Positions 12,428 through 61,986 of a stretch of 64,000 bases of DNA are shown one piece after another. Source of the DNA: [Phialemoniopsis] sp. UDSM-2020 (taxonomy: Eukaryota; Ascomycota; Sordariomycetes; Thyridiales; Thyridiaceae); contig JAEILZ010000001.1 in assembly GCA_018873225.1 (NCBI GenBank), positions 496,001 to 560,000 on the forward strand. The letters are read 5' to 3'. How positions within the stretch are numbered: the first letter of the stretch is position 1; the number at the start of each line of letters is the position of its first letter. The notes beneath the pieces are model-generated. The model did not search any database. It saw nothing but the letters and a program-made list of their open reading frames with translations, and had not been told where the DNA came from. The position numbers and the translations under genes were made by a program.

Positions 12428-14992
12428 TCACCAAGTGAAGCTCTCCTCAAAGTACTCAACCCCAACAAACCCCTTGCCCAGGACATCCACCACCGCTCTC
12501 CGCGCATCATCCGCCATCCTCGCCGGCCCGCACGCGACAACAGCCAAACTGCCACCCTGCGCCGCCCTCGCCGCCGCCTCGACCTCGCCAGCGACGTCGG
12601 GCCTTCCAGAAAGCATCCTCACTCCCTCCGGTGGCGTAGGGTGCTCTTCTTCATCGCCACTCGCGACTTCGTCCTTGTTCGTAATGTACACGTCCAGCGA
12701 CAGCCTCTCTCCCGCGCTGGAGTCTACGGCCCGCGTGGCTATGGCCGACTCGAGCGAGTCGCCAAAGTCCTCACGCAGGACTTCGACGGCGAACCCGCGC
12801 TCGCGCGCGGCCCAGACGATGCGCACCGAGCGCGGCGCGTCGAGGCTCGCCATGTGCGAGAGCGGGACGACGATGCCGCTGCCGCCGACGACGAAGAGTA
12901 CGTGATCGAAGCGGTGGAAGGGCTGCGTGTGCCCGTAGGGCCCGTCGACGAGGACGCGCAGGTGTGCTGGTTTCGGCCAGGCCGCGGCCGCTGTGTCGCG
13001 CAGGCGTGCGGTGAAGCTGTCGTACGGGCGGATCAGGAAGGTCATGGTCGACGGGGCCTTGCCGGCGGGTCTGTCGGAGCTGCCTGCGCCACTGAGGAGG
13101 AGCGGCGCTTCATCGCCGAGGGCGGCGTCTTGGTCTGCGGCGTGGCCGCCTAGGACTTGGCGGGTGGCGGTTGTTGAAGCTACTGTAAAGGGGTGGGATT
13201 CCCAGAAGCGTAGGTCATTGAGAACGTGGAGGTAGTAGAAAGTGCCCGGTTTGGGACGGTAGAAGCTGGTGTGGTAAGGGATGCTGAGGCGGATGATGTT
13301 GGAGTCCGGATTATATGTGGCGGTAGCCGGGGTGTTCCAGAATTTGCGATTGAAGGCGACGACTCGGAGACCTCGGAATATGCGATCGAAGACCCAAATG
13401 ACAGCTGGAACCCATACTAGGAAGTCGAAGCGACCCTTGAAGATAGAAACGTGTCTGATCGAAAATGTCAGTCGAGGTATGCGGAAGGGGATAGGGGCAG
13501 ACCGACCCAAGCATGGTGAACAACACCAAGATCGAAAGCACAATATGCAAAACAAGGAATAGCTCGTAGGTGTTCCGACGCAGCCAAAACACGGAAAAGA
13601 TGAGGATAAAACACATGAAGATGGTAGCCTAGGCGCATGGTTAGTAAGTATTAATGACCAAACAGGGTGATTGGTAGAGTAGGACATACAAGTTCTCCGA
13701 CCCAGAAGTAGTACTGTACCAGAAAGTACTTGAAGTACTGCCAGCCACCATCTATCTAGTGTTAGCAGTGATCGCACCCACAACGACAAGGACACTTACC
13801 CTTGAAAATCAGATAGGTGTACCCGACCGAGTGGATGACTGCTTGTAGTGTAGCCACACGAGCCACCCAGCGGTGGAAATTATTGTATGTGCCAAAGTCC
13901 CACCCGGTCAGGGACATCAGCAAGTTGTTACGCATCCCAAACAACCAGATTATGGGGAAGTTGGCGAAAGAGATGATGCCTGTGCGATCTGATAGGTATC
14001 GCCAAATCTGCTTCGAGATGGTTCCAAAGCTAGGAGCATGTCAGCCAGGTGTCTCTCCACCACTATAGTCATCTGAGCCTACTATAAGTTCCCCTCAAAC
14101 ACTGTATAGCCGTGAATACAAAAGAAGGTGTTGAGGAGGATGAAAGTTGCTATCGTCAAGGTCTGAATTCTGGGTGGCACCGTGCACCATCCGACATTCT
14201 GGGCACATTTGTATCCGAATGTTGCCGGAACAGTCAGATAGCGTCTCAACCAAAGATTAGGCCGGCTTGTCCAAGTGATGGGTCTCGCTTCCGAAGCCGG
14301 GTCGTCACTCTCAAACTGCTCTCTCTGTGGAACAGGTCGCCAGTCTCTTCTCCTCACCATGCAGGCAGCCGCAATCAGGCGACTCAGCAGTCCAATGGCA
14401 ACGACGCTGATCCAAAAGACAGTGACAGCACCCCTGGTTTACGCTTTAGTACAGGCCTCATAGTCAAGGAGCATCTCATCACGGTCCAGACCCACCCATA
14501 GAGAAAGTGATACTTGTGCACATAGGCAACAGCATCAAGCGTATCATGCGCGTCGGCATAAAACTCGTCCGACGGCAGCACGACCTCGTTCAACACCAGA
14601 ATACTGTCGACCTCCTCGTCGGTGATCCTGCGCAGGCCGGCAATCACGTCGTCGGTGTAGTTGGCGATGATCTCGTACGGCAGGATGGGTGTGTGCAGGC
14701 TCTGCATGCATGACTCGTTGCGCGCGGCGAGCCCGGGCTGCCTCGACTCCGGGCGGCAGTTGACCTCGAGGCAGAGGTACAGCGACGTGAGACCCAGGCG
14801 GCTGAGGCAGTTGCGCGCGATCTTGGAGGAGCCCTTGCGTATGTCCTCGAAGAAGGGCTCGCGCAGGGTCATCTGACACGCGTCGAAGCACATGGGCCCC
14901 GCGCGGTCGGTCGGGCGCTTCGCATGCGCAAAGGAGCACCATGATGCCAGCACAGAGGCCCAAAGCACGAGGGATGCGTGTGTGAGCCGCAT
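12428..14992 (-). CDS. Ferric reductase-like transmembrane flavocytochrome (FRE family)
   Basis: A multi-exon gene. The ATG at 14992 opens a signal peptide (MRLTHASLVLWASVLASWC) and a cysteine-containing luminal domain of about 150 residues. Several hydrophobic segments follow, with heme-ligand-type histidines spaced in two helices: FHRWVARVATLQAVIHSVGY (13 residues apart) and a later FLVLHIVLSILVLF. The cytosolic half has the FAD-binding HPFTVAS motif and an NADPH-binding glycine-rich site (VDGPYGH, LFVVGGSGIVVPL, CGPARMADD), and ends in YFEESFTW, the usual aromatic C-terminus. Such proteins move electrons from NADPH across a membrane to reduce Fe3+ or Cu2+. It lies 0.8 kb from a UstYa gene, whose family is thought to be metal-dependent; whether it belongs to that cluster is unknown. 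Introns are numerous (at least four). Confidence 0.85.
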
Positions 14993-15821
14993 GACTGCCA
15001 CTCTATGGCGGTTTGCGCATCGCTGGGCGTGGCGTTGAAGAAGTGTGGAGAGGGGTTAAGTACCAAAAACGGAGTCAAGGGAGAAACGGAAATTATCAGA
15101 TCCAAAAGTCTGAGGGAATTTTATCTTATCAGATCATCAGTGGAGCCGCACGGCCCGATCTCGGCATTGGGACACCAGACCCCTCATTTCGACCATGTGA
15201 TTGGCCAGAAGGCATCATAGGGGAGAATTGAGCCCACGTGTGTCCAGGAAGCGCCTCTTGGCAGAGGGGAAAACGACTTGGCAAATTCTCCTGGGAATAG
15301 GCATCAGCACAGACATTGTTCACCCGTTACAGACCAAGGAAACTTTGAAATGTTGAGCCTCATCCAATCCAAGCGATGACTTGCAGGTAGCTCAGTCCTC
15401 AAGTCATGTGACTACTCTGGAAAGCCATCTCAAAGACCAAATGCACGTAGAGACATGGAACAATGATTTCTCGTGTCCCGATTTGTGATTTCGCCGATTA
15501 CTAACTAGTGTAGAATTCGGAAGACGCTGTGGGAGCAAAGTATCCGCCATAGAGGGTCTCCTTCCTCTCCGCATCACATAAGCGGTGTCCGCTTACCCGC
15601 ATCCTCATCAATACCCCTTACAGTGCGAAAACATCACCTTCACGGCGGTACGGTTGCTCGATCAGGGTAGCATACACCCGACCAGTCCCTTTGATCCTTT
15701 CATGGTTACATTTCCTTTCTTGGGCTAGTAGTTCACTCACAGGTTGTTTCTTATTAAGACAGTTTTAGGGCGAACATAGTGATTCTTCCAAGATAGTGTC
15801 ACACGTTTTCTCACACTCAAC
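14993..15821. other. Divergent promoter region between the reductase and UstYa-like gene 1
   Basis: About 0.8 kb with no gene. The two flanking genes are transcribed away from each other, so both promoters should lie here. No clear repeated operator was found. Confidence 0.5.
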
Positions 15822-16499
15822 ATGGCTAACAAAATCGAGTATTCGCAAGTCAATGACACTGACAGCGACAACGACCATGACCAGTCGTATCAGGCTGTCC
15901 ATCGACGGCGCAGATGGATCTCAACAATAATCTCATTCATCATTGGCCTCGTCACCATGGGGGCCTTGATGGCCCTTTTCCAAACCTTCATATTGCCGAA
16001 ACCACCACACGCACGCATCCTGCCGCCCGGGCCCAGCGGCGCTGACCCGAAAAGTGGCCTGCCTCTGGCCTGGTTCAACGGCGACTGCGGCAACTCTTAT
16101 GAAGAGGCTGTGGCGCGAGACTGTCGGTACAACGTCGTTCTTCACGCGTGGCTGCCCAAGACCTGCCTCACAGAAGCCGATGCAGAAGACGCCGAAGAAA
16201 TGTACAAAGACCGCAATTGGCAGTACACTGCTGCGTCGGGCCAGAACCAGACCATCGAGCGAATCGCTGTTGGAGACTCTCACCACTTTACCACGTCGTT
16301 TGGCTGGCATGTCGTGCACTGCATGTATATCTGGAAGCGTCTGCACAGGGTCTTGCTTGACCCAACCCTGCAGATAGACTCGTACACGGCCAGCTATCAG
16401 CATACGAGTCACTGCGTGGAAATGATTGCGGGCGATTCAGAGGGTATGGTGGACCAGGGCACGAAGGTGTTTGTCAAATTTCCGAGTTGCGCAAAGTAG
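15822..16499 (+). CDS. UstYa/DUF3328-like protein 1 (divergent subtype)
   Basis: An intronless 225-aa protein. It has a polar N-terminus, one transmembrane segment (about residues 34-54, IISFIIGLVTMGALMALFQ) and a lumenal domain. That domain contains two histidine-cysteine motifs, HVVHC and HTSHC, the HxxHC pair that defines the UstYa/DUF3328 family. The preceding NGDCGNSYEEAVARDC and CLTEADAEDAEEMY region is the subtype with extra cysteines seen in a branch of this family, different from UstYa-like proteins 2 and 3. UstYa proteins are single-pass oxidases that act on peptide cores in dikaritin and cyclochlorotine-type pathways; known members oxidise or cyclise the substrate. It is convergent with UstYa-like gene 2, ending 68 bp from it, and lies 1.9 kb from the repeat precursor. 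Confidence 0.85.
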   Translation: MANKIEYSQVNDTDSDNDHDQSYQAVHRRRRWISTIISFIIGLVTMGALMALFQTFILPKPPHARILPPGPSGADPKSGLPLAWFNGDCGNSYEEAVARDCRYNVVLHAWLPKTCLTEADAEDAEEMYKDRNWQYTAASGQNQTIERIAVGDSHHFTTSFGWHVVHCMYIWKRLHRVLLDPTLQIDSYTASYQHTSHCVEMIAGDSEGMVDQGTKVFVKFPSCAK

Positions 16500-16567
16500 A
16501 TGATTGTCAAGTATTGAGACTAGTAGTATTATCATGTTGATATCCTCATACATAATTGAATGCTCTT

Positions 16568-17470
16568 CTAGCTTTGCCTGATTGGGGCTCCTGCGACAAA
16601 CACGTAGAAATCCAAATCTGTCTGAGCTTTGTGCTCCACCGCCCAGTCTCTGATCTTCTGAAAGTTCTTGCAAGTATGCGTTGTCTTGACATTGCCCAAC
16701 ATCCTCTGCCGCTCCACACTCCACTCCCAAAAGATCGTGCTGACATCCGACGAGCACTGAAGTGACTGTCTAACCTGTTCGATGCAATGCTCCATGTGAT
16801 GAACATTCTCAATTGCTTCTTCTGATCCCGACGTCATGTCCATCTTGTAGACAGTGGGATAAGCCAGTTTGCGCAGCATATTGAGGCAATGCAGTTGATG
16901 AAACACATCAAGCTCCACAATGTAGTGGCTGGTGTCGTTTGTGAACGGCGTTGTTGCGTTGGGCAGCTTGGCAGCCGATTCAGGAGTGATTTGAGAGATC
17001 AAAACTTCTGTATATTCGAGACATTAGCCTTCGCGTGAGAAACAACAAGGCTCTGCGCGAAACACACCGTTGTAAAGTTCATCCCAGTGAGCGTCAACCT
17101 CGCTTGAAGAGCCTTGATACTTCGACCCATCGCCCTCGAGGCCACCCCCGCTGAAGACTACCGTCTCATATTCAACTGCAGCTTGTGCAGGGGCTATCCT
17201 CTTGTCAAATCGTGGCCCATTTGAGAACAGCCTGTATCACTTACAGTATATCTCGTCGGGAATATAGGCTTTGCTTGTATCGCGTCTTTGCAATGTCCAA
17301 GTAGCGAGCATGGCTAAGAGCAGAACGATGTTCAGCGCAACGGAGTATGGCATAAGATGAGCCCATCTTCTCAGTCTCGACCTTCTCTTCGTAATTGGGA
17401 GGATATCACTCTCCTCGTCCCCCAGAAAAGGCACCTCATCAGAGGCTCGATCAGTCTTCTCGTAAGCCAT
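16568..17470 (-). CDS. UstYa/DUF3328-family protein 2
   Basis: Three exons start at the ATG at 17470. Exon 1 has a charged cytoplasmic tail and one membrane helix (MPYSVALNIVLLLAMLATWT). Splicing restores the conserved Y-S-A-V-E-Y-E sequence of the family. The second intron joins HWDELYNE to VLISQITPES. The C-terminal domain holds both HxxHC motifs, as FHQLHCLNMLRK and HHMEHCIEQVRQ, then CSSDVSTIFWEW and HTCKNF. This is the classical UstYa layout, close to UstYa-like protein 3. It would act in the secretory pathway on the precursor peptide, most likely in oxidative cross-linking. It is divergent from the precursor gene, separated by about 0.9 kb that holds repeated TCGGAC motifs. Confidence 0.9.
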
Positions 17471-18394
17471 AACAGTAGACAAGGCCTCAAATTGAGATAT
17501 CTCAGTGATCGTAGATTGATTTGATGTAGTGATCTGGATTTCTCGTGTGCATTCAGAAGTCCCGCGCAAGCTGCCTGCCTACCCAGAAGCATGCAGTCTC
17601 GTACCGTGTCTCGTGTACTGTGCATCAAGTCAAGGTTGTGCTTAGAATTCATAGGCAACCAAGGTTGCATTTCTGCTTTGAGAAGGTGACATCTCGTTTC
17701 CCGAGCTGTATCATGCAGTGAGACATGATCAACAGTAGGCTTCGTCCATGTGGCTCCCGAATGCGAGAAATGCTACGAAGCCGTGAAGGAAGAGCTTTGC
17801 TTTTCATCGAATTCTACTTGTCATTGGATGCAAACGATTCGTGCTCACCGCAATTGAGGGGGATGTTGAACCTAGCTTGGGATTGCTAGGTCCGAGGTAT
17901 GTTCGTTCCCCGCGCTTATGGGCGTACAGCCTCGGACTCCAGGGTCCTTCGGACTTTTAACATCTCGGACTTCACGCAGCATCTCGTCAATGCGCTTTCA
18001 TAGGATCAGAACCAACCTATCAAGCAAACCAATCAACCAGAGCTGCTTCAAAGAGGACCTGCTAGTTGTGTAGTTACTGCAATAGTCGGTGATCAAATGC
18101 TCAACTAGGCAGGAGAAGAGACAACATCACGGCTGACACAAAGCTAGTGCTGTAGGTCATCGCGGGGTATTCTCTGGTTGACAGAGGAACATATCGTGAC
18201 ATAATCCCGTGGGATTCCATCATGACTGCATTGCAACGTTGCGGGTGACTTGCTCTGCCTTAACAGGTAGATAAGTGGTGCGATACTCGCATCGATATCC
18301 AGGGCACCCTTTGATAATTCTGCGAAGGTGAGCTCAAGCATCAAACATCAACGTTCATCTCAAACCAACCTCGTTATCTCAACAAACCTTCAAG
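17471..18394. promoter_or_regulatory. Shared upstream region of UstYa-like gene 2 and the repeat precursor
   Basis: About 0.92 kb of non-coding DNA between two divergent genes. The final 90 bp before the precursor ATG are rich in CAAC and CATC and A/C-rich, a usual fungal 5' UTR style. The TCGGAC motifs are listed separately. Confidence 0.45.
17890..17970. promoter_or_regulatory. Four TCGGAC/GTCCGA motifs, candidate regulator binding sites
   Basis: GTCCGAG occurs at 17890-17896; CTCGGAC at 17931-17937, TTCGGAC at 17948-17954 and CTCGGAC at 17964-17970. The three direct copies are 17 and 16 nt apart. CGG-containing motifs are the usual half-sites of Zn2Cys6 regulators, but no such regulator gene lies next to the cluster. 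Function is inferred only from clustering and position between two divergent cluster genes. Confidence 0.35.
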
Positions 18395-18787
18395 ATGAAG
18401 ATCGCTCTTCCCGTCGTCTTCGCGCTCTTCAGTGCTTCCCTTGCCGCGCCCGTCCAGAGCGGTGACAAGCGTTCTGAGGCTCAGAGCCCCGACATCCTGT
18501 ACAACAACGCCGCCGGCTGGGGACGAAAGCGCTCTGAAGCCCAGAGCCCCGATATCTTATACAACAACGCCGCCGGATGGGGCAGGAAGCGGGACGAGGC
18601 CCAGAGTCCCGATATTCTTTACAACAACGCAGCTGGTTGGGGAAGGAAGAGGTCCGAGGCTCAAAGCCCCGATATCTTGTATAACAACGCCGCCGGCTGG
18701 GGACGGAAGCGTTCTGAGGCTCAGAGCCCTGACATTCTCTATAACAATGCCGCTGGCTGGGGAAGAAAGCGGGAGGAGGCTGAGTAA
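18395..18787 (+). CDS. Kex2-processed repeat precursor peptide (dikaritin-type RiPP candidate)
   Basis: A single-exon 130-aa protein. Residues 1 to about 18 are a signal peptide (MKIALPVVFALFSASLA). APVQSGDKR follows, then five 20-residue units SEAQSPDILYNNAAGWGRKR, then EEAE. Only the first residue varies (Ser in four, Asp in one). Every unit ends in a dibasic site after which Kex2 would cut. Signal peptide, multiple identical cores, KR sites and UstYa genes on both sides match the layout of UstA, PhomA and the epichloecyclin precursor. Each unit has one Tyr and one Trp, residues that oxidases of this kind could cross-link. Codons differ between units while the peptide is unchanged, so the peptide is selected. 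The residue before RKR is Gly, so trimming by carboxypeptidase would leave a C-terminal Gly. A linear secreted signal peptide is the main alternative; it lacks the W-x-GQP-like alpha-pheromone signature. No tyrosinase or methyltransferase gene is nearby. Confidence 0.9.
   Translation: MKIALPVVFALFSASLAAPVQSGDKRSEAQSPDILYNNAAGWGRKRSEAQSPDILYNNAAGWGRKRDEAQSPDILYNNAAGWGRKRSEAQSPDILYNNAAGWGRKRSEAQSPDILYNNAAGWGRKREEAE
18473..18772 (+). repeat. Five tandem 60-bp coding units of the precursor
   Basis: The units lie at 18473-18532, 18533-18592, 18593-18652, 18653-18712 and 18713-18772. They encode the same peptide with many synonymous third-position differences (for example CTG, TTA, CTT, TTG and CTC for the single Leu). 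There is no length variation and no frame break. Confidence 0.95.
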
Positions 18788-18946
18788 CGCCTCGGTATCA
18801 TTCGGCGTGCGCGAATAGACTATCACCATCTGTATACTCGTAGTGATCAATGCAGACAGAGTCTATCTGGACAAAGCTCTATGGCTTCCTTGACGACTGT
18901 GTGTGTAGTCATAAATTTGTGGTTGCTGTTCTAGGAAGCATCTCAG

Positions 18947-19076
18947 TACAGAGGTGGTAAGGGTAAATAAGACGTCTCTGCAAGGCATTAAACGGTTTGA
19001 ATATGGGTAGTGGGATAACCCTCCACCTAGCAGTCGATACCTGACAGGGGGGGGAGAAATTTCAGCTTGCGACCTT
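18947..19076. repeat. Cluster-specific dispersed repeat, copy A
   Basis: It starts with TACAGAGGTGGTAAGGGTAA and continues through GACGTCTCTGC, GGGTAGTGGGATAACC, CCACCTAGCAGTCGATACCT and a run of G to TTTCAGCTTGC. It lies between the precursor stop codon and UstYa-like gene 3. It is closely similar to copy C and partly to copy B. Confidence 0.8.
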
Positions 19077-19475
19077 AGTAGGAATAAGCATTTCTGTAAA
19101 AGCTTGGCAGAGAAGTATATTCGCCGCTCAATAGACCCCTTCCTTCACACAACATCGGATGTAACCTTACATGGCACGTAAACCCCGTTGGGGCTACAGA
19201 TGCTGTGAGTGAGCCTTCGCGTTGAAAAGGAGTGCGACCGATACTACGCAAGGTCATGCGCAGTCAGCACTTGAGCTTGGACGTCTATGCACCTCGCTTT
19301 CCATCAACCTGTCAGTTCCGAGCTGTTCAATTACAACCGACCGAGCGATGCCCTCCAAAAGCCGAACTCAATTTCAACGCCCACCTACACAGAAAATACT
19401 GTCCAGTTCAAATCGCGAGAGATTGACCATTACCGTCACCTCGCAAATGTATGTCTTTTTCATCTGCATACAGTC

Positions 19476-20535
19476 ATGTATTCAGAGCGTGATGTGACCG
19501 ACAGACATGGTCCCGCAGAACCATCAGACACTGAAAGTCTCTTGAGTTCTGATCAACTGCAAGAGAAACTGATACCTTCATTACCGTCCACTCCATCAAA
19601 ACAACAGAGAAGGTTAAGGACATATCTTCATATCGCCGCTATAGTCTTCTACACCTGCATCACCATCGTCCTATACATATGGAGCACCAAAACAAAGGGG
19701 GATACTTGCAAATGCGAGAAGGTCGACGTCTATTGTAAGTCGACGGATAGTTGCTAAGGTGTCAAGGGTAACTAAGATGTCCCTGCGAGGTATTGGCTGT
19801 GTGATTTTGGGTAGTGGGATAGCCCTGAATGTGAGGATTGATTGCTAATTGAGACTTCCAGCTCCGGCCAAGACCGCGGTTGAATATGAGACACGGACTA
19901 TCGTCCACAACGTAGCCGACAGTAGCAAGTATCGTGGCCCGCCGCGGCCAGAGCAGGACGCTGCATGGGAGGACCTTCTGAGATGTAATTGAGAAACTGC
20001 TGAACTCAGTTCAGCAACTGTACTAACATGTGATTATCCTAGACAACAATCTCCGCATACAAAAGGAAGATCTCGAAAGGGCAGGCCTTACATCAGTACC
20101 CTTGAATGACGACGAGGGCGGCTACCTCGCGACACTCGATGTATTTCACACGCTCCACTGCGTGAACAAGGTCCGAAAGTCTTACTACTCCGACTACTAC
20201 CACGACCCCAACCCAATCGAAGACCAGCGAGAGCACTTTGATCACTGCATCGACCTGCTCCGCCAAGTCATCATGTGCCACGGAGACGTTTCTCTGCATA
20301 CGTACGGATGGAAGGACGACTACAGATGGCCGTGGCCGAGTATGCGAACGGAACACCAGTGTCGGAACTGGGACAAGTTGATCGCTTGGTCGGAGGACCA
20401 TTACGTTCCGAGTTTGACGGGTCCGATATTGTCGCATCCCATTTTGGGTAAGCCAGTCGATGGGAGCATCCTAAACCACAAGGTACTAATCGAGTCACAG
20501 GTACATCGTTCCGAGGAGATGAACCACATGACTGA
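19476..20535 (+). CDS. UstYa/DUF3328-family protein 3
   Basis: Four exons (19476-19734, 19862-19984, 20043-20447, 20501-20535) give 273 aa with all phases consistent. Exon 1 has an acidic tail and one transmembrane helix (IAAIVFYTCITIVLYIW). Splicing gives the family sequence Y-S-P-A-K-T-A-V-E-Y-E. The catalytic-type domain reads YNNLRIQKEDLERAG, GGYLATLDVFHTLHC, then HFDHCIDLLRQVIMCHGDVS, with both HxxHC motifs, and HQCRNWDKL. The last small exon ends in GTSFRGDEPHD; if it is not spliced the frame runs to 20563. Role: probable peptide oxidase/cyclase on the precursor 0.7 kb upstream, same strand. Intron 1 contains copy B of the cluster repeat, which is unusual. Confidence 0.9.
19754..19848. 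repeat. Cluster-specific dispersed repeat, copy B (inside an intron)
   Basis: The shared segments are GTGTCAAGGGTAACTAAGAT, TCCCTGCGAGGTATT and TTTTGGGTAGTGGGATA; the distal part seen in copies A and C is not recognisable. It occupies most of intron 1 of UstYa-like gene 3. Confidence 0.65.
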
Positions 20536-20619: not shown

Positions 20620-20750
20620 TACAGAGGTGGTAAGGGTAAATAAGACGTCTCTGCGAGGTACTGACCTAGATGGGTTTGGGTAGTGGGGTAACCATCCACC
20701 TAGCAGTCGATACCTAACAGGGGGGTCGACAATTTCAGCCTGCAACCTTC
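20620..20750. repeat. Cluster-specific dispersed repeat, copy C
   Basis: It matches copy A over its length: TACAGAGGTGGTAAGGGTAA, GACGTCTCTGCGAGGTA, GGGTAGTGGGGTAACC, CCACCTAGCAGTCGATACCT, a run of G, then AATTTCAGCCTGC. It lies just 3' of UstYa-like gene 3. Confidence 0.8.
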
Positions 20751-20848
20751 GTACATGCTGAAGCTGAAAAAACGCTTGCTTGTTCCATGCTAATCTAGTA
20801 TATACATAATACATAACCTCGTTTTGAAAATGTTCATCTTGTGCAACC

Positions 20849-27880: not shown

Positions 27881-29472
27881 CTAACTCGAAGAAATGATCT
27901 TCTCCATCTCGGCAACATCCTTGACAGCCGGTGTCAAGTTCTCGTATCCTCCAGTCTTGATGAGGATGTTGTCCTCAATGCTACAAGGTCCAGGTTAGCA
28001 TTACCACAAACAGATTGCCATTGGGTTGGATCGACTTACCGCACACCACCAACATCCCAGTACTTGTTCAGAACATCGGCATCGATGTACTTTGACAGCT
28101 CTGGGTCCTCAAGATAAGGCTTGATAATGAACTCGCAGAAGTAGATCTGCACTCGAAAGTCAGTTTCCTTCCCAAAACCAAGCTTGATATGTGCACAAGA
28201 AAACTTACGCCAGGTTCCACGGTAACGATAGCGCCAGCGGGCAGCTTCCCACGGATGCGCAAGTACCTAAACATCTTGTCCTTGTCGGCATAGTTCGCAT
28301 TACCGCCCGTGTCGTGCGTGTCCATGCCGAGGTAGTGCCCCAGCCCGTGCGGGAAGAAGGCGACGCTGACCCTCTTGTCAAAGATCTCATTCTTGTCGCC
28401 CTTCAAAATCCCCAGCTTCAGCAGCCCATCAATGGCAAGCCTGTGCGCGTCAGAGTGGATGTCGTCCCAGACGGCGCCCTCCTTGCACTTCTCGATGCTC
28501 TCCAGCTGCATGCCCAGCACAATGTCGTAGATCTCGCGCGACTCCTTGCTGAACTTGCCCGAGATGGGGAACGTCCGCGTGATGTCGGCCGCGTAGCAGT
28601 CCCACTCGGCGCCGGCGTCGAGCAGCAGGTTCAGCCGGCCGGACATGTCGGCGTCGTTGCGCCCGTAGTGCAGCGTGGCGGCGGTGCGGCCGCTCGCGAC
28701 GATGGCGTCGTACGCCTGCTTCTTGGCGCCCAGCGAGATGCACGTGCCCTTGAAGACGGCGTCGAGCTCCGTCTCGTTCTTGGCCGTGCGCGCGCGGGCC
28801 ATGACGGCGCGGTGCGCGGCGCTCGAGACCTCGTTGGCCTTGCGCGTCAGGGCGACCTCGTAGTCGCTCTTGACGACGCGCGCGTACTCGATGGCCGTCT
28901 TGAGCGAGTCGAGGCGCTTCTCGTCGAACTCGAGGAAGGTGATGTGGTCCGAGACCTGCTCGGGGATGGCGTAGATGGCCGTCTTGGGCCGCGAGGGCGT
29001 CGACTTGCCGAGGCGGGCGAGCTCGGCGTTGATCTCTGTCGTGAATTTCACCTCGTCGACGTCCCACAGCTTGAGGGCCTCCTCGGGGGAGACTGGCAAG
29101 CCGGACCAGATGACATCGTCGGCGTCGATGGGCGGGATGAAGAGGGTTGAGTGGGCGGTGTCGATGTCGTAGATGACGTAGCAGTCTGGGAGGGGGCAGC
29201 CGGTGATGTAGAAGAATGGGCGCCGTTGCCTGTGCGCACACGCGCGTCAGTCAGGCCTCAATTGAGCTCTCACTACGGGAGGATCATAGAGTAAAGACGT
29301 ACCGGAAGGGCTCAGCTGCGTCGCTGTCCTCTAGCATCTTGGTCGCCCGGCCCTCGAGGTAGATGATGCCAGAGACATCGGGGTTCTTGAGGCGCAGCTG
29401 CTCGACGACATGCTTGGCGTGGGCTTTGGCCGGGTATTTTCCCTTGAGAATCTCCTCGTAGTTTGTCGCCAT
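27881..29472 (-). CDS. PEPP: Xaa-Pro aminopeptidase / prolidase (metallopeptidase M24B)
   Basis: Four exons (29303-29472, 28209-29229, 28040-28146, 27881-27980) give 465 aa. The N-terminal AMP_N domain begins [20 protein letters not shown], as in the fungal PEPP proteins. The pita-bread catalytic domain contains the metal ligands: Asp in [20 protein letters not shown] (two Asp), His in [16 protein letters not shown], Glu in TVEPG and Glu in VRIEDNILI. All five appear intact. It hydrolyses dipeptides or N-terminal X-Pro bonds in the cytosol, using manganese in known members. The ATG at 29472 is preferred over in-frame upstream sequence because the family begins here. This is a housekeeping-type gene. 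Confidence 0.93.
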
Positions 29473-57777: not shown

Positions 57778-60700
57778 TTACTCAAGCCTTTCCCTGTTTA
57801 AAACTTCCTGACATCTGATGAGATCTTCAGTCGAGCAGTCAAGAGCGTATTCTTTACGTTTATGAATTCCCGAGTCAACCTTCGGGCCTTCGGCAAATCT
57901 GTGAAACAACTCCAATCCTTTGGATATGATACTTGAAGCGTCGTCGCCGTTGAGATCTTGTCGATCGACATCCGCGCCACAACTTACGAGATGGGCGAGA
58001 AGCAAGTGCGCACCTGCATAAATAGCCCACATGACGGCTGTTTGCCCTTCATTGTCAGCGCTGTTTACGTCGGCTCCACGCTCGATGAGTACCCGGGCCA
58101 CGGGGTGCAGATCGGCTCGATTCAACATCGTGGCCCCCTGTGCTAAGGCTATCAAGGGGGTTCTGCCACCGAAGTCGCGTGCATCCACATTGGCGCCTCT
58201 GTCAAGGAGAGTCCTCGCGGACGGTAACTGGGACGTGGAGAGGCAATCAAACAACAGTGATCGGCCGAGGTGGTCTCTCGAATCGGGGTCTGCACCACGT
58301 TCCAGAAGCGTATACACCGTGGGGGAATTTAGACCTTGTGATATAGCGCGCGATAACGGTGTCCTCCCTTCATTGTCTCTGGACTCAATATCTGCCCCAT
58401 GATCAAGAAGGATATCGACGCTCGCCTCAAAGGCGCCGAAATCTGAAGCCCATGACAGCGGTGTTCTTCCATCATCATCTCTTGATTCGACATCTGCCCC
58501 GTGATCCAGAAGTACCTGTACAGTTGGGACAGCTGTCTTCCATGCTGCAATAGACAGGGGCGATCGGCCACAGCTATTCTTTGCCTCTATATCCGCATTT
58601 CTCGCGAGGAGTAGTTTGATATTTGGTATCCCACCCTCCAAAAACGTTCCTGCAGCTACAAAAAGGGCTGTTCGTCCGTCGTCGTCCCTGGCCTCGATGT
58701 CCGCACCAGCATTCAGTAGGGCCTCCGCAATAGGTCTTGTGTGCATTTTAGAAGCAGCTAAAATCAAGGCTGTCTCACCGATGTTATTTTTGTGATTGAC
58801 ACCGGCGCCACGGGATATCAGTAACCGCACCATCTTGATGCGGTTTTCGCGAGCGGCAATGGCTAGCAACCCATTGTCCTTGTCGTCTGTTACTTCAAGC
58901 ATCGAAGGGTAGCCGTCTATCAACTGCTGCACGAAGGCTACATCATCGACCGACAATGCGGCCAAAATGATGTTCCCACGAATCGTGTGTACGTCGTACA
59001 TACGATTGTCGGCGGCGCCCTGTTCCACAATGGAGGCTGAAAGTATTGCGTCGCCAGAGGCATAGGCTTGGGAAGCTAGACTGTTGCTCTTCTTCAACTT
59101 GAAGTCACGCGCATAGCGTGGTCTGGGGCTGCCGTCGCTGTGGGCATTGCACAGAAGATGTAAAATTGAATCCACTGGTGAAAGCTCGAGCGTTGTTTCC
59201 ACTAGTGCGCGGACAGCATCCTGGCTGTTTGTGGCATGGGCCGCGATCCAGGGACATCCATAACGTTCTTTCTCAAGCTCAAAACAGGACTGTTTGGAAG
59301 GGTTATGCCGTATGAGATGTCCGAGGTCTCTCTCGGCCATAATATAAAGCAAACTCGCATCCACGGTATATCGACGTATTGCATGTTTTTCCCACAGGTT
59401 TGAATATCGGATCCAGTCCTGTCGGGGAAATTGTCGGAAAATATCTGACGGCGTGGCTCCTAGACTTGCCGCTTTGTTCGCGTGCCAGAGGACGTTCTGT
59501 ATTGCATATTGAAGGAAAGGCACGTCTAAGTCCAGTGACTCGAAAAGTTCTTTTGATTGCCATACACCGCAGATAATCGGGTTGGAGAAGCTGTAATGAA
59601 GGTAGTTCATACAGCACTCTACTATCTCCTGGTGCCCTGTTGCCAGACGCCCGTTACCAAGATCAGAGGAGAGAACATCCAGACCGCCATCACGGATCAG
59701 GAAATCCACAACTGATTCGTGGATGAATTGTACCACCGGATCCTTAGTTCTGGTAACTTCGGTCAACCCTTTGGAGTCGTTCAGAATGCTCTTCTTGATT
59801 ACATCAATCGGGAGCTCATCCTGATACCATCTGTTCAACTCATCATTGTTTGCCCCCGCTAGTATTGCAAAGTACAATTGTTGGGGGGATAGCGGCTTCC
59901 GAGCGAAAAGAACCAAGTGGATGCACAGCAAGAGTTCTTTGGTGTCACGGCAGTCTCTCGTGAGAATGTCGCGAAATAGCGCGTGCAAATCGCCAGGAAT
60001 CTCTTTCAATTTTCGTAGTAGTCGTTGGCCATGACGCCCAGCATCGTATTCCTTATTCAAGATGCCGACAACTAGCACAACCCACATGAAGACCCCTGAT
60101 GACTTTTCGTAGAGATTGTTCCGTATCGATACGGTCGATTCGTTGTCCGGGCCGATTATCAGCTCGTTGTCGATGTATGTTCTGATGTCCTGGTCATGAC
60201 CTGCCTGGCCACTCAAATCCAGGTCAAGGCAATGGCGAATGCTAATATGGGGATAGTATCTGCTTGCGAAACATATCCGAAACCTGACCTTGGCCTCTAT
60301 TGCCATTTCCCCGAGCTGTTCAAATAACTTCATCATAGATCGGATCTGACTTTCGTCACATTCGTCCAGAGCGTCAATGAAACAGGTGACGGAGTGGTCT
60401 GCGAGTCGTTCAACAACGAGTTCGAAGATTTGTTCCAGCAAATGGACCGGCCACTGAGCCTTGGTGTTATGATAGCTTCTCAGTGGAGGGAGATCGAAAG
60501 TCTCTTGTAGCTCAGGGATCTGCTCGAGAATTTGAACAAGTAGTGAGCGATACATCCCCTCTGTCGACTTCTCCAGATCGTCTCCACGTGCATGAAAGAA
60601 GAAAGAAACAACGGTCTGGTCCTTCAATGCCCTACGCGCGCTTGCAAGGGCGAACTTCATAAGGGTCGACTTTCCAGCCCCAGGTTTCCCTTTCATCCAT

Positions 60701-61986
60701 AAGAAGCCGTGGTGCTCGTTCTGGCTATCTGGATGAAGCCAGTCCAAGTACTTGGGATCTTTGAGAAGCCACCGGCAAGTCTTCCTGTGTGCAGCCTTGA
60801 TACTGAGATGTCGTGCATCAATTTGATCGAAGCGCAAGCTATCGAGCAGAGCTTCTCTCTGCTTTTTATCAAAGTGTTTTCTCGGGAGAGACGGACTGTT
60901 GTACAGTTCGGACTTTTGGTGGTTCGTTTTCAGCATGCTCGAGATTGCGGAGGAGACCTTCTGGTATTCGATATCTGTGGGGCCAGTGAAGCGACACATG
61001 TCTCGATGATCTCGGGCAATATGTTGTACTGTCTCTATGGCTGGGTTACCGATGCAAGAAGAAACGTCTTCAACAACCTACAAAAGAAACGTCAGTCTCA
61101 TCAGGCTAACACCTACAGGAATGGACTCAGAGACAACCCACTTTGCGGTTGTTCAGAATGTTCATCCCATGATCTTCCTGGAAAGAGTAGATGCGCCAGC
61201 TTTGCTGCTGTGCCATTGGCCCGAACTCATCTCTCAACTCTCTCAACCGTTCTGACGACGGCAACAACGCTCGCACAACGTCCTTATTGACCTGGAACCC
61301 GAGCGCCTTGACTGCTCTTTCTGCCGCGTCGCGCAGCAGACTTTGAGGATCCGCTCCGGAATGTGGTGTACCGAAGAACACGATACCCTTTGTGGCTTTG
61401 AAAACCATGTGGTGGTCTGGGTGGACCGACTCGCAGCTTCGGGACCTCCGCAGCATCTCCTTGACGATGATGCCACCAAGACTGTGGGCAATGAAGATAA
61501 GGGGCCGGGAGATATCCATGTCACGCTTCGATACGAGCTCAACCAAAAAGTCTCCCGCATGGTCATAGACTGTTTTCTGGCTACTTGAGCCATTCAATCG
61601 GTGCTTCATCCGTGTGTCATAGCCGTAAGTGAGCACGCGAGCCTTGGGTACAGACTTTGGCAGCAAATCCCGAGGCCAGTAGACAGGACCAGTTGAGTGA
61701 TTCGGCCTGGAGGGTCTCAAAAACGGGCCGAACTTTCGTGATTTGGTTGGCGGCTCGCTCGATCCGTCATCAAATAATCCATTCCCGCCGTCTTGTACTT
61801 CCCCCTTTAAGTGAGTCCAAGTGCGCTGTGGGTGGCCCGTAAAGCCATGGACAAATACGATGCTTGTGTCAGTCAGCGACCGTGCTCAATATGTTCGTGT
61901 TCTATAACCTTTGGGACTTGATCATACTCAGCATGATCGTCTTCCGGCTCGTGAACAACGGTCAATCCTGTGGCAGGAATCTCCAT
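57778..61986 (-). CDS. NLR-like protein: alpha/beta hydrolase, NACHT, ankyrin repeats
   Basis: The proposed start is the ATG at 61986 (MEIPATGLTVVHEPED). An intron (about 61864-61930) leads to IVFVHGFTGHPQRTWT. The N-terminal domain is a serine-hydrolase fold with IFIAHSLGGIIVKEML (nucleophile Ser in AHSLGG) and FGTPHSGAD. A second intron (about 61080-61142) joins it to DHRDMCRFTG. The NACHT domain begins after a linker, with Walker A GKPGAGKSTLMKFA and Walker B CFIDALDECDE. The C-terminus has about nine ankyrin repeats (e.g. NIGETALILAASKMHTRPIA, DGRTALFVAAGTF). This PLP/hydrolase-NACHT-ANK architecture is that of fungal STAND/NLR proteins implicated in non-self recognition, heterokaryon incompatibility or immunity-like cell death. 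Total about 1,360 aa. The repeats are not near-identical, so it is not of the high-identity-repeat class. Its role here is unknown. Confidence 0.9.

Follow-up and report, generated by a model that had tools for sequence, protein, structure and literature searches.

A probable tyrosinase-free, dikaritin-like peptide cluster with a five-unit Kex2-repeat precursor and three UstYa genes in [Phialemoniopsis] sp. UDSM-2020

The analyzed stretch of DNA (hereafter, the window) comprises 64,000 nucleotides of [Phialemoniopsis] sp. UDSM-2020, positions 496,001 to 560,000 of contig JAEILZ010000001.1, in a genome of 44.2 Mb and 11 contigs. Four intact genes lie within positions 15822-20535 of the window (C1:511822-516535 in the genome): three members of the UstYa/DUF3328 family, denoted U1, U2, and U3, and a gene for a repeat protein, denoted the precursor (Table 1). 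An earlier reading made from the letters alone (the sequence-only reading) had proposed exactly this combination of a Kex2-repeat precursor and three UstYa genes, and both the coordinates and the domains hold: in Pfam scans against PF11807, U1 scores 25.0 bits, exactly the curated cut-off, U2 scores 168 bits, in a model one residue short, and U3 scores 202 bits. The gene order is U1, U2, precursor, U3, with the precursor between U2 and U3. U1 and U2 are convergent and 68 bp apart, while U2 and the precursor are divergent, with a 924-bp intergenic region between them.

Table 1. Genes and other features of the locus and of the rest of the window (window coordinates)
Feature	Position	Strand	Structure and remarks
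U1, short divergent UstYa/DUF3328 protein	15822..16499	+	one exon, 225 aa
U2, UstYa/DUF3328 protein	16568..17470	-	three exons, 263 aa
U2 exons	17470-17245, 17193-17068, 17007-16568	-	GT-AG introns
U2-precursor intergenic region	17471..18394		four TCGGAC sites (either strand) at 17890-17970
Precursor, Kex2-processed repeat protein	18395..18787	+	130 aa, one exon, no intron
Five 60-bp units of the precursor	18473..18772	+	precursor residues 27-126
U3, UstYa/DUF3328 protein	19476..20535	+	four exons, 273 aa
U3 introns	19735-19861, 19985-20042, 20448-20500	+	GT-AG
FRE, ferric-reductase-type gene	12428..14992	-	FAD_binding_8 and NAD_binding_6 matches at ~12491-13983; start inferred, extent approximate
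Dispersed repeat flanking U3	18947-19080 and 20620-20753		~105-134 bp
Diverged copy of this repeat	19757-19826		apparently inside U3 intron 1
Aminopeptidase P (M24) gene	28071-29246	-	~7.5 kb from the cluster
Large open frame	57781-61077	-	NPHP3_N domain and ankyrin repeats

The precursor begins with a leader, MKIALPVVFALFSASLAA, judged by eye to be signal-like, which is followed by KR and then by five units, [S/D]EAQSPDILYNNAAGWGRKR. Each 20-residue unit consists of a 17-residue peptide, [S/D]EAQSPDILYNNAAGWG, and RKR. This is the architecture of a Kex2-processed repeat protein (KEP), that is, a protein of secreted type in which three or more repeats have dibasic Kex2 sites between them. The units had been described as identical; there are indeed five of them, with a period of 60, but the third begins with D rather than S, and only units 1, 2, 4, and 5 are identical in protein. 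At the DNA level, the gene holds a tandem repeat with period 60 and 5.1 copies, in which the five units differ at 22 of the 60 nucleotide columns, including 17 third codon positions. The 10 unit pairs carry 103 silent and 14 replacement differences (pS 0.78, pN 0.03). As the silent sites have diverged while the protein has stayed constant, the repeat array is old and the peptide is under strong selection. On the same pattern, we rejected a chance repeat or a pseudogene, as well as a recent tandem duplication. In its own genome, the precursor matches only its own gene.

Among 5.8 billion proteins searched (E up to 1), six candidates were found, of which two are relatives of the precursor: P0001, on a 781-base ENA contig, and P0002, Fusarium austroafricanum F53441_7361. 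Their identities are 71 and 76%, with 68% of the query covered; viral contigs scanned with the precursor yielded no relative. Across the 11 units of the three precursors (five here and six elsewhere, counted by eye), 14 of the 17 positions are the same. The variable positions are 1 (S/D), 8 (I, once S), and 13 (A/Q), while Tyr10 and Trp16 are invariant. Hence, DILYNNAAGWG, previously presumed to be the core, may be too narrow: the conserved stretch is the whole 17-residue unit. The suggestion that the peptide is undescribed is plausible, as neither the unit nor its fragments turned up as a peptide in the main texts searched, supplements aside, and the unit was not seen in the sections of PMC7329392 consulted. 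The peptide is apparently undescribed.

U1, U2, and U3 are each hydrophobic in an N-terminal segment and carry two HxxHC motifs: HVVHC at 163 and HTSHC at 194 in U1, HQLHC at 154 and HMEHC at 188 in U2, and HTLHC at 163 and HFDHC at 192 in U3. The most hydrophobic stretch of U1 is at about residues 35-54. In an AlphaFold2 model of U1 (33 sequences, mean pLDDT 83.5), HVVHC falls in the helix of residues 160-179 and HTSHC in that of residues 192-202, the two motifs thus standing on two helices, as described for CctR, the cyclochlorotine hydroxylase. A sequence search of the PDB with U3 produced no match, and a fold search of the PDB with the U1 model, taken to E 10, produced 22 matches, of which none reached E 0.001. 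Of the DUF3328 enzymes, CctR has been studied best: it is anchored in the membrane, uses O2, and has two coppers at its double HxxHC (PMC12435403). It is similar to the enzymes considered here in the anchor and the double motif, but it is a hydroxylase acting on a non-ribosomal cyclic peptide.

The three enzymes form a conserved set. We found 49 homologs of U1 (E up to 0.001, from 190 candidates) and 284 matches in a U3-U2 profile search. The best 120 of these 284 matches, which were used as the U2/U3 side of the linkage counts, comprise 74 U2-like and 46 U3-like proteins by best BLAST match, distant members included. As a proxy for linkage, we considered homologs on equally long contigs, the size being that of the longest contig of a 90% cluster. 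At least 16 of the 49 U1 homologs are on a contig as long as that of a U2 or U3 homolog; the matching contigs range from 2.3 kb to 14 Mb, with 11 of the 16 shorter than 100 kb. In the control, equal sizes were seen in 20 of 9284 different-class pairs versus 0 of 4912 same-class pairs (Fisher P 0.0002). In addition, U1 and U2 homologs have consecutive locus tags in at least four species (F66182_8879/8878, FHETE_974/973, PT974_07036/07037, and NLG97_g4516/g4517), and, among the matches listed, one size of 4,283 bases is common to U1, U2, and U3 homologs. Given the equally long contigs and the consecutive tags, the U1-U2-U3 set appears to be inherited together across species. Linkage of the precursor is suggested for one further species, F. 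austroafricanum, where P0002 and the U2 ortholog P0064 are both on contigs of 136,486 bases.

One could imagine that the UstYa genes, conserved as a module, act on a different substrate, and that the precursor is a later or lineage-specific neighbor. Indeed, the set is found far more widely than the precursor, and DUF3328 enzymes also function in non-ribosomal and other pathways (PMC12048977, PMC12435403). However, the precursor at this locus has genes of the set on either side, gene callers easily overlook short repeat proteins, and repeat cores differ from fungus to fungus (PMC7329392). Moreover, the U1 and U3 tags of Fusarium sp. VM40, 017000 and 016970, fit two genes between them, assuming steps of ten. 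We therefore consider a different substrate unlikely.

Still less probable, in our opinion, is that the precursor yields an unmodified linear signal peptide, an alpha-pheromone-like molecule or a hormone, with the UstYa genes serving another product. Alpha-pheromones also combine a signal with Kex2 repeats (PMC6339444), and P0002 is called 'Mating factor alpha' in UniRef, a misleading name. However, the unit has no cysteines, of which two are characteristic, and, by eye, no PCW end, both conserved in the alpha-pheromones of Fusarium and other Sordariomycetes (PMC6339444), and its start lacks the Ste13-type signature, a dipeptide XA or XP. Pheromone-type repeat proteins, bar three exceptions, have no DUF3328 neighbors according to the text of PMC7329392, while such neighbors are present here, and the precursor occurs together with U2 both here and, judged by the equally long contigs, in F. 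austroafricanum.

Similar loci are known. In the survey of PMC7329392, 7878 Kex2-repeat proteins were reported in 1345 of 1461 fungal strains, and 1758 of them (22%) had DUF3328 neighbors, 1.7 genes on average, a neighborhood of the same sort as here. Clusters of this kind are thus common, and the locus is a new example of a kind already known; no matching cluster appears in the available sections of PMC7099791, PMC12142624, and PMC10334655. Like the clusters of ustiloxin and phomopsin, the founding dikaritins, it combines a signal-like leader and repeats with KR cleavage sites with two or more DUF3328 proteins and Tyr in the unit (PMC6514808, PMC12048977). Unlike them, it has a different core, no tyrosinase or S41 peptidase nearby, and no methyltransferase in the scanned frames. 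A close parallel in composition is the putative asperipin-2a cluster of Aspergillus flavus, which, as described in PMC6514808, also has a repeat precursor, a DUF3328 oxidase, very few genes, and no tyrosinase. It has one DUF3328 gene rather than three, and its core, FYYTGY, has three Tyr, whereas the unit here has a single Tyr and a single Trp. In the neighboring frames scanned here, nothing corresponds to the asperipin-2a transporter or isoflavone reductase, a purine-type permease aside.

The original definition of dikaritins includes a tyrosinase in the cluster and also lists a methyltransferase, and a transporter or a peptidase (PMC12048977). The sequence-only reading had seen no tyrosinase, methyltransferase, or peptidase gene in the interval. 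The nearest tyrosinase match of the genome is at C1:834882, ~318 kb from the locus; there is no S41 peptidase nearby, its sole match in the genome being weak and on contig C11; and no methyltransferase was found in the Pfam scans, which covered the three enzymes, the precursor, and 35 of the other open frames in the window. Yet the lack of a tyrosinase is not without precedent, the asperipin-2a cluster having none either. By the later, class-defining feature, a DUF3328/UstYa protein with two HxxHC motifs (PMC12048977), the locus has three such genes, U1 being at the cut-off, and a leader, judged by eye to be a signal, precedes repeated cores between KR sites.

Taken together, these observations make it very probable that the locus is a tyrosinase-free dikaritin-like cluster for a ribosomally synthesized and post-translationally modified peptide (RiPP), in which the unit released by Kex2 would be modified by U1, U2, and U3 at Tyr and/or Trp. 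The precursor gene and the three oxidase genes most likely make a chemically tailored secreted peptide. In ustiloxin and asperipin-2a biosynthesis, release of the repeats is ascribed to Kex2, and the ether-linked rings require DUF3328 proteins and, in ustiloxin, also the tyrosinase (PMC6514808). From such characterized relatives we infer secretion, Kex2 cutting, and copper chemistry here as well. The precursor would enter the secretory pathway via its signal-like leader; cleavage after each KR by Kex2 (the genome has one Kex2-type, P_proprotein, match) and trimming of basic residues by a carboxypeptidase would yield five copies of the 17-residue peptide. In the Golgi or endosomal lumen, U1, U2, and U3, as membrane-anchored binuclear-copper oxidases, would by analogy oxidize the 17-mer, released or still attached. 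Tyr10 and Trp16 are the obvious candidate sites, and the most likely modification would be oxidative cross-linking through one or both of them. The product would then be secreted, possibly after N-terminal trimming. The computed [M+H]+ of the linear peptide SEAQSPDILYNNAAGWG is 1792.814, and would be 1790.798 upon the loss of one H2 and 1788.782 upon the loss of two. For the trimmed linear forms AQSPDILYNNAAGWG, SPDILYNNAAGWG, and DILYNNAAGWG, the values are 1576.739, 1377.643, and 1193.559, respectively, with dehydrogenation shifts of minus 2.016 or 4.031.

Several points weigh against this interpretation. Equal contig size is a proxy and no proof of linkage, and one of the 20 equal-size pairs (U2-U3, 1,262 bases) is too short for both genes and must be a coincidence or an artefact. 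No partner was seen among the best 120 of the 284 matches for 33 of the 49 U1 homologs, and U1 itself is only at the family cut-off. The search for the precursor in other proteomes, proposed previously, did retrieve two relatives with nearly the same unit, but none more, against the 49 homologs of U1. In particular, the 4,283-base size shared by U1, U2, and U3 homologs brought no match in the precursor search, and the precursor there may differ or be absent. The sets for which no precursor was found could reflect a core of another kind, small genes that were overlooked, or a real lack of the precursor. Finally, one P0001 unit has Ser for Ile8, which weakens the case for a phomopsin-like Tyr-Ile bond, and we therefore tend to favor such a bond less.

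With this locus, the fungal oxidatively modified peptides would gain a sequence that did not turn up in the papers searched. Being compact, with one substrate gene and three oxidases and no tyrosinase, it allows one to ask about the role of each DUF3328 copper enzyme.

A further gene may be of relevance to these enzymes. The ferric-reductase-type gene FRE is apparently divergent from U1, with ~830 bp between them (as measured from the inferred start), so that the two appear to have a common intergenic region; its putative N-terminal frame has no Pfam match. As an addition to the preferred interpretation, a modified peptide made by U1, U2, and U3, FRE might be one more member of the cluster, providing the UstYa oxidases with electrons or Cu(I), although we regard this as doubtful. 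CctR requires Cu(I) and electron input, and an accessory protein was postulated by its authors (PMC12435403). Among 27 FRE-type loci and 18 UstYa loci (from 34 rows), both merged by hand, two FRE-type loci are within 10 kb of a UstYa locus versus 0.25 expected (Poisson P 0.026), a count that includes the pair that prompted the test. Within 3 kb, one is observed versus 0.10 expected (P 0.096); two distances were tried. Ferric reductases are not mentioned in the main text of PMC7329392. On these counts, we rejected firm membership of FRE in the cluster, and its partnership with the oxidases is a lead, short of a finding. If FRE does belong, the locus could help to identify the donor of electrons or Cu(I) postulated for CctR. 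An even broader suggestion, to which we would assign little probability, is that U1-U2-precursor-U3 with FRE is the type of a widespread tyrosinase-free Hypocreales RiPP class, with three dedicated binuclear-copper oxidases, a dedicated metalloreductase, and a Trp/Tyr-based modification of a 17-residue peptide whose core varies by lineage.

In the same genome, a simple repeat scan revealed repeat-precursor-like frames beside at least 6 of the 18 UstYa loci, the present one included. This is a rough lower bound from a scan with no secretion test, whose only control, the rest of the window, gave nothing more. A second RiPP-like cluster, L024 (G000:C8:1878900-1888800), has nine YVWASPG units and several UstYa matches; its unit, DVEPAYVWASPG, fits the published conserved motif YVW[G/A][G/S] (PMC6339444). 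It differs from the locus described here in the core, the gene order, and the larger number of UstYa matches. As one of its genes is U2-like (43% over 258 aa) and another U1-like (27% over 198 aa), the U1 and U2 types recur in another RiPP-like cluster. At L019 (G000:C5:1877900-1887500), a precursor-like frame near a weak UstYa match has (S/A)EDAALRNGAWG units with KR or RE after them and no Tyr, and one end, WGRKR, resembles the window unit. Firm kinship of this frame with the precursor was rejected, as the match (E 7e-7) was on repeats, with composition correction and the low-complexity filter off. Three other loci near UstYa matches, L014, L027, and L028, have repeat-precursor-like frames of the ALPQVYGAHQLKTKEDDF, NEERQILPYKITTF, and AEAADYIYPIP types.

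Other genes of the window include a purine-type permease ~7 kb from U1 and, elsewhere, a fragment of a major facilitator superfamily (MFS) transporter, both with no evidence of a link to the cluster. The same holds for a role of the aminopeptidase P gene, though the unit has Ser-Pro near its N-terminus. The large open frame at the far end is like a fungal NLR gene, its NACHT match being below the cut-off. The TCGGAC sites upstream of U2 and the precursor were considered as a cluster promoter motif and dropped, since there are 0 sites before U1 (15003-15821) and before U3 (18950-19475); the whole window has 29. The dispersed repeat that flanks U3 recurs across the genome, with at least 40 matches of 80-100% identity. 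A pattern for alpha-pheromones of the Fusarium type has 0 matches in the genome.

Taken by themselves, the introns and the nearest protein relatives would suggest a filamentous ascomycete, probably of the Hypocreales. Among the relatives of the enzymes, many UstYa matches bear the misleading public name 'tat pathway signal sequence'. The U3 ortholog of Talaromyces proteolyticus, P0053, is 85% identical to that of Fusarium albosuccineum and falls in a group of otherwise hypocrealean names (97/96), in which its exact place is weakly supported; horizontal transfer is possible.

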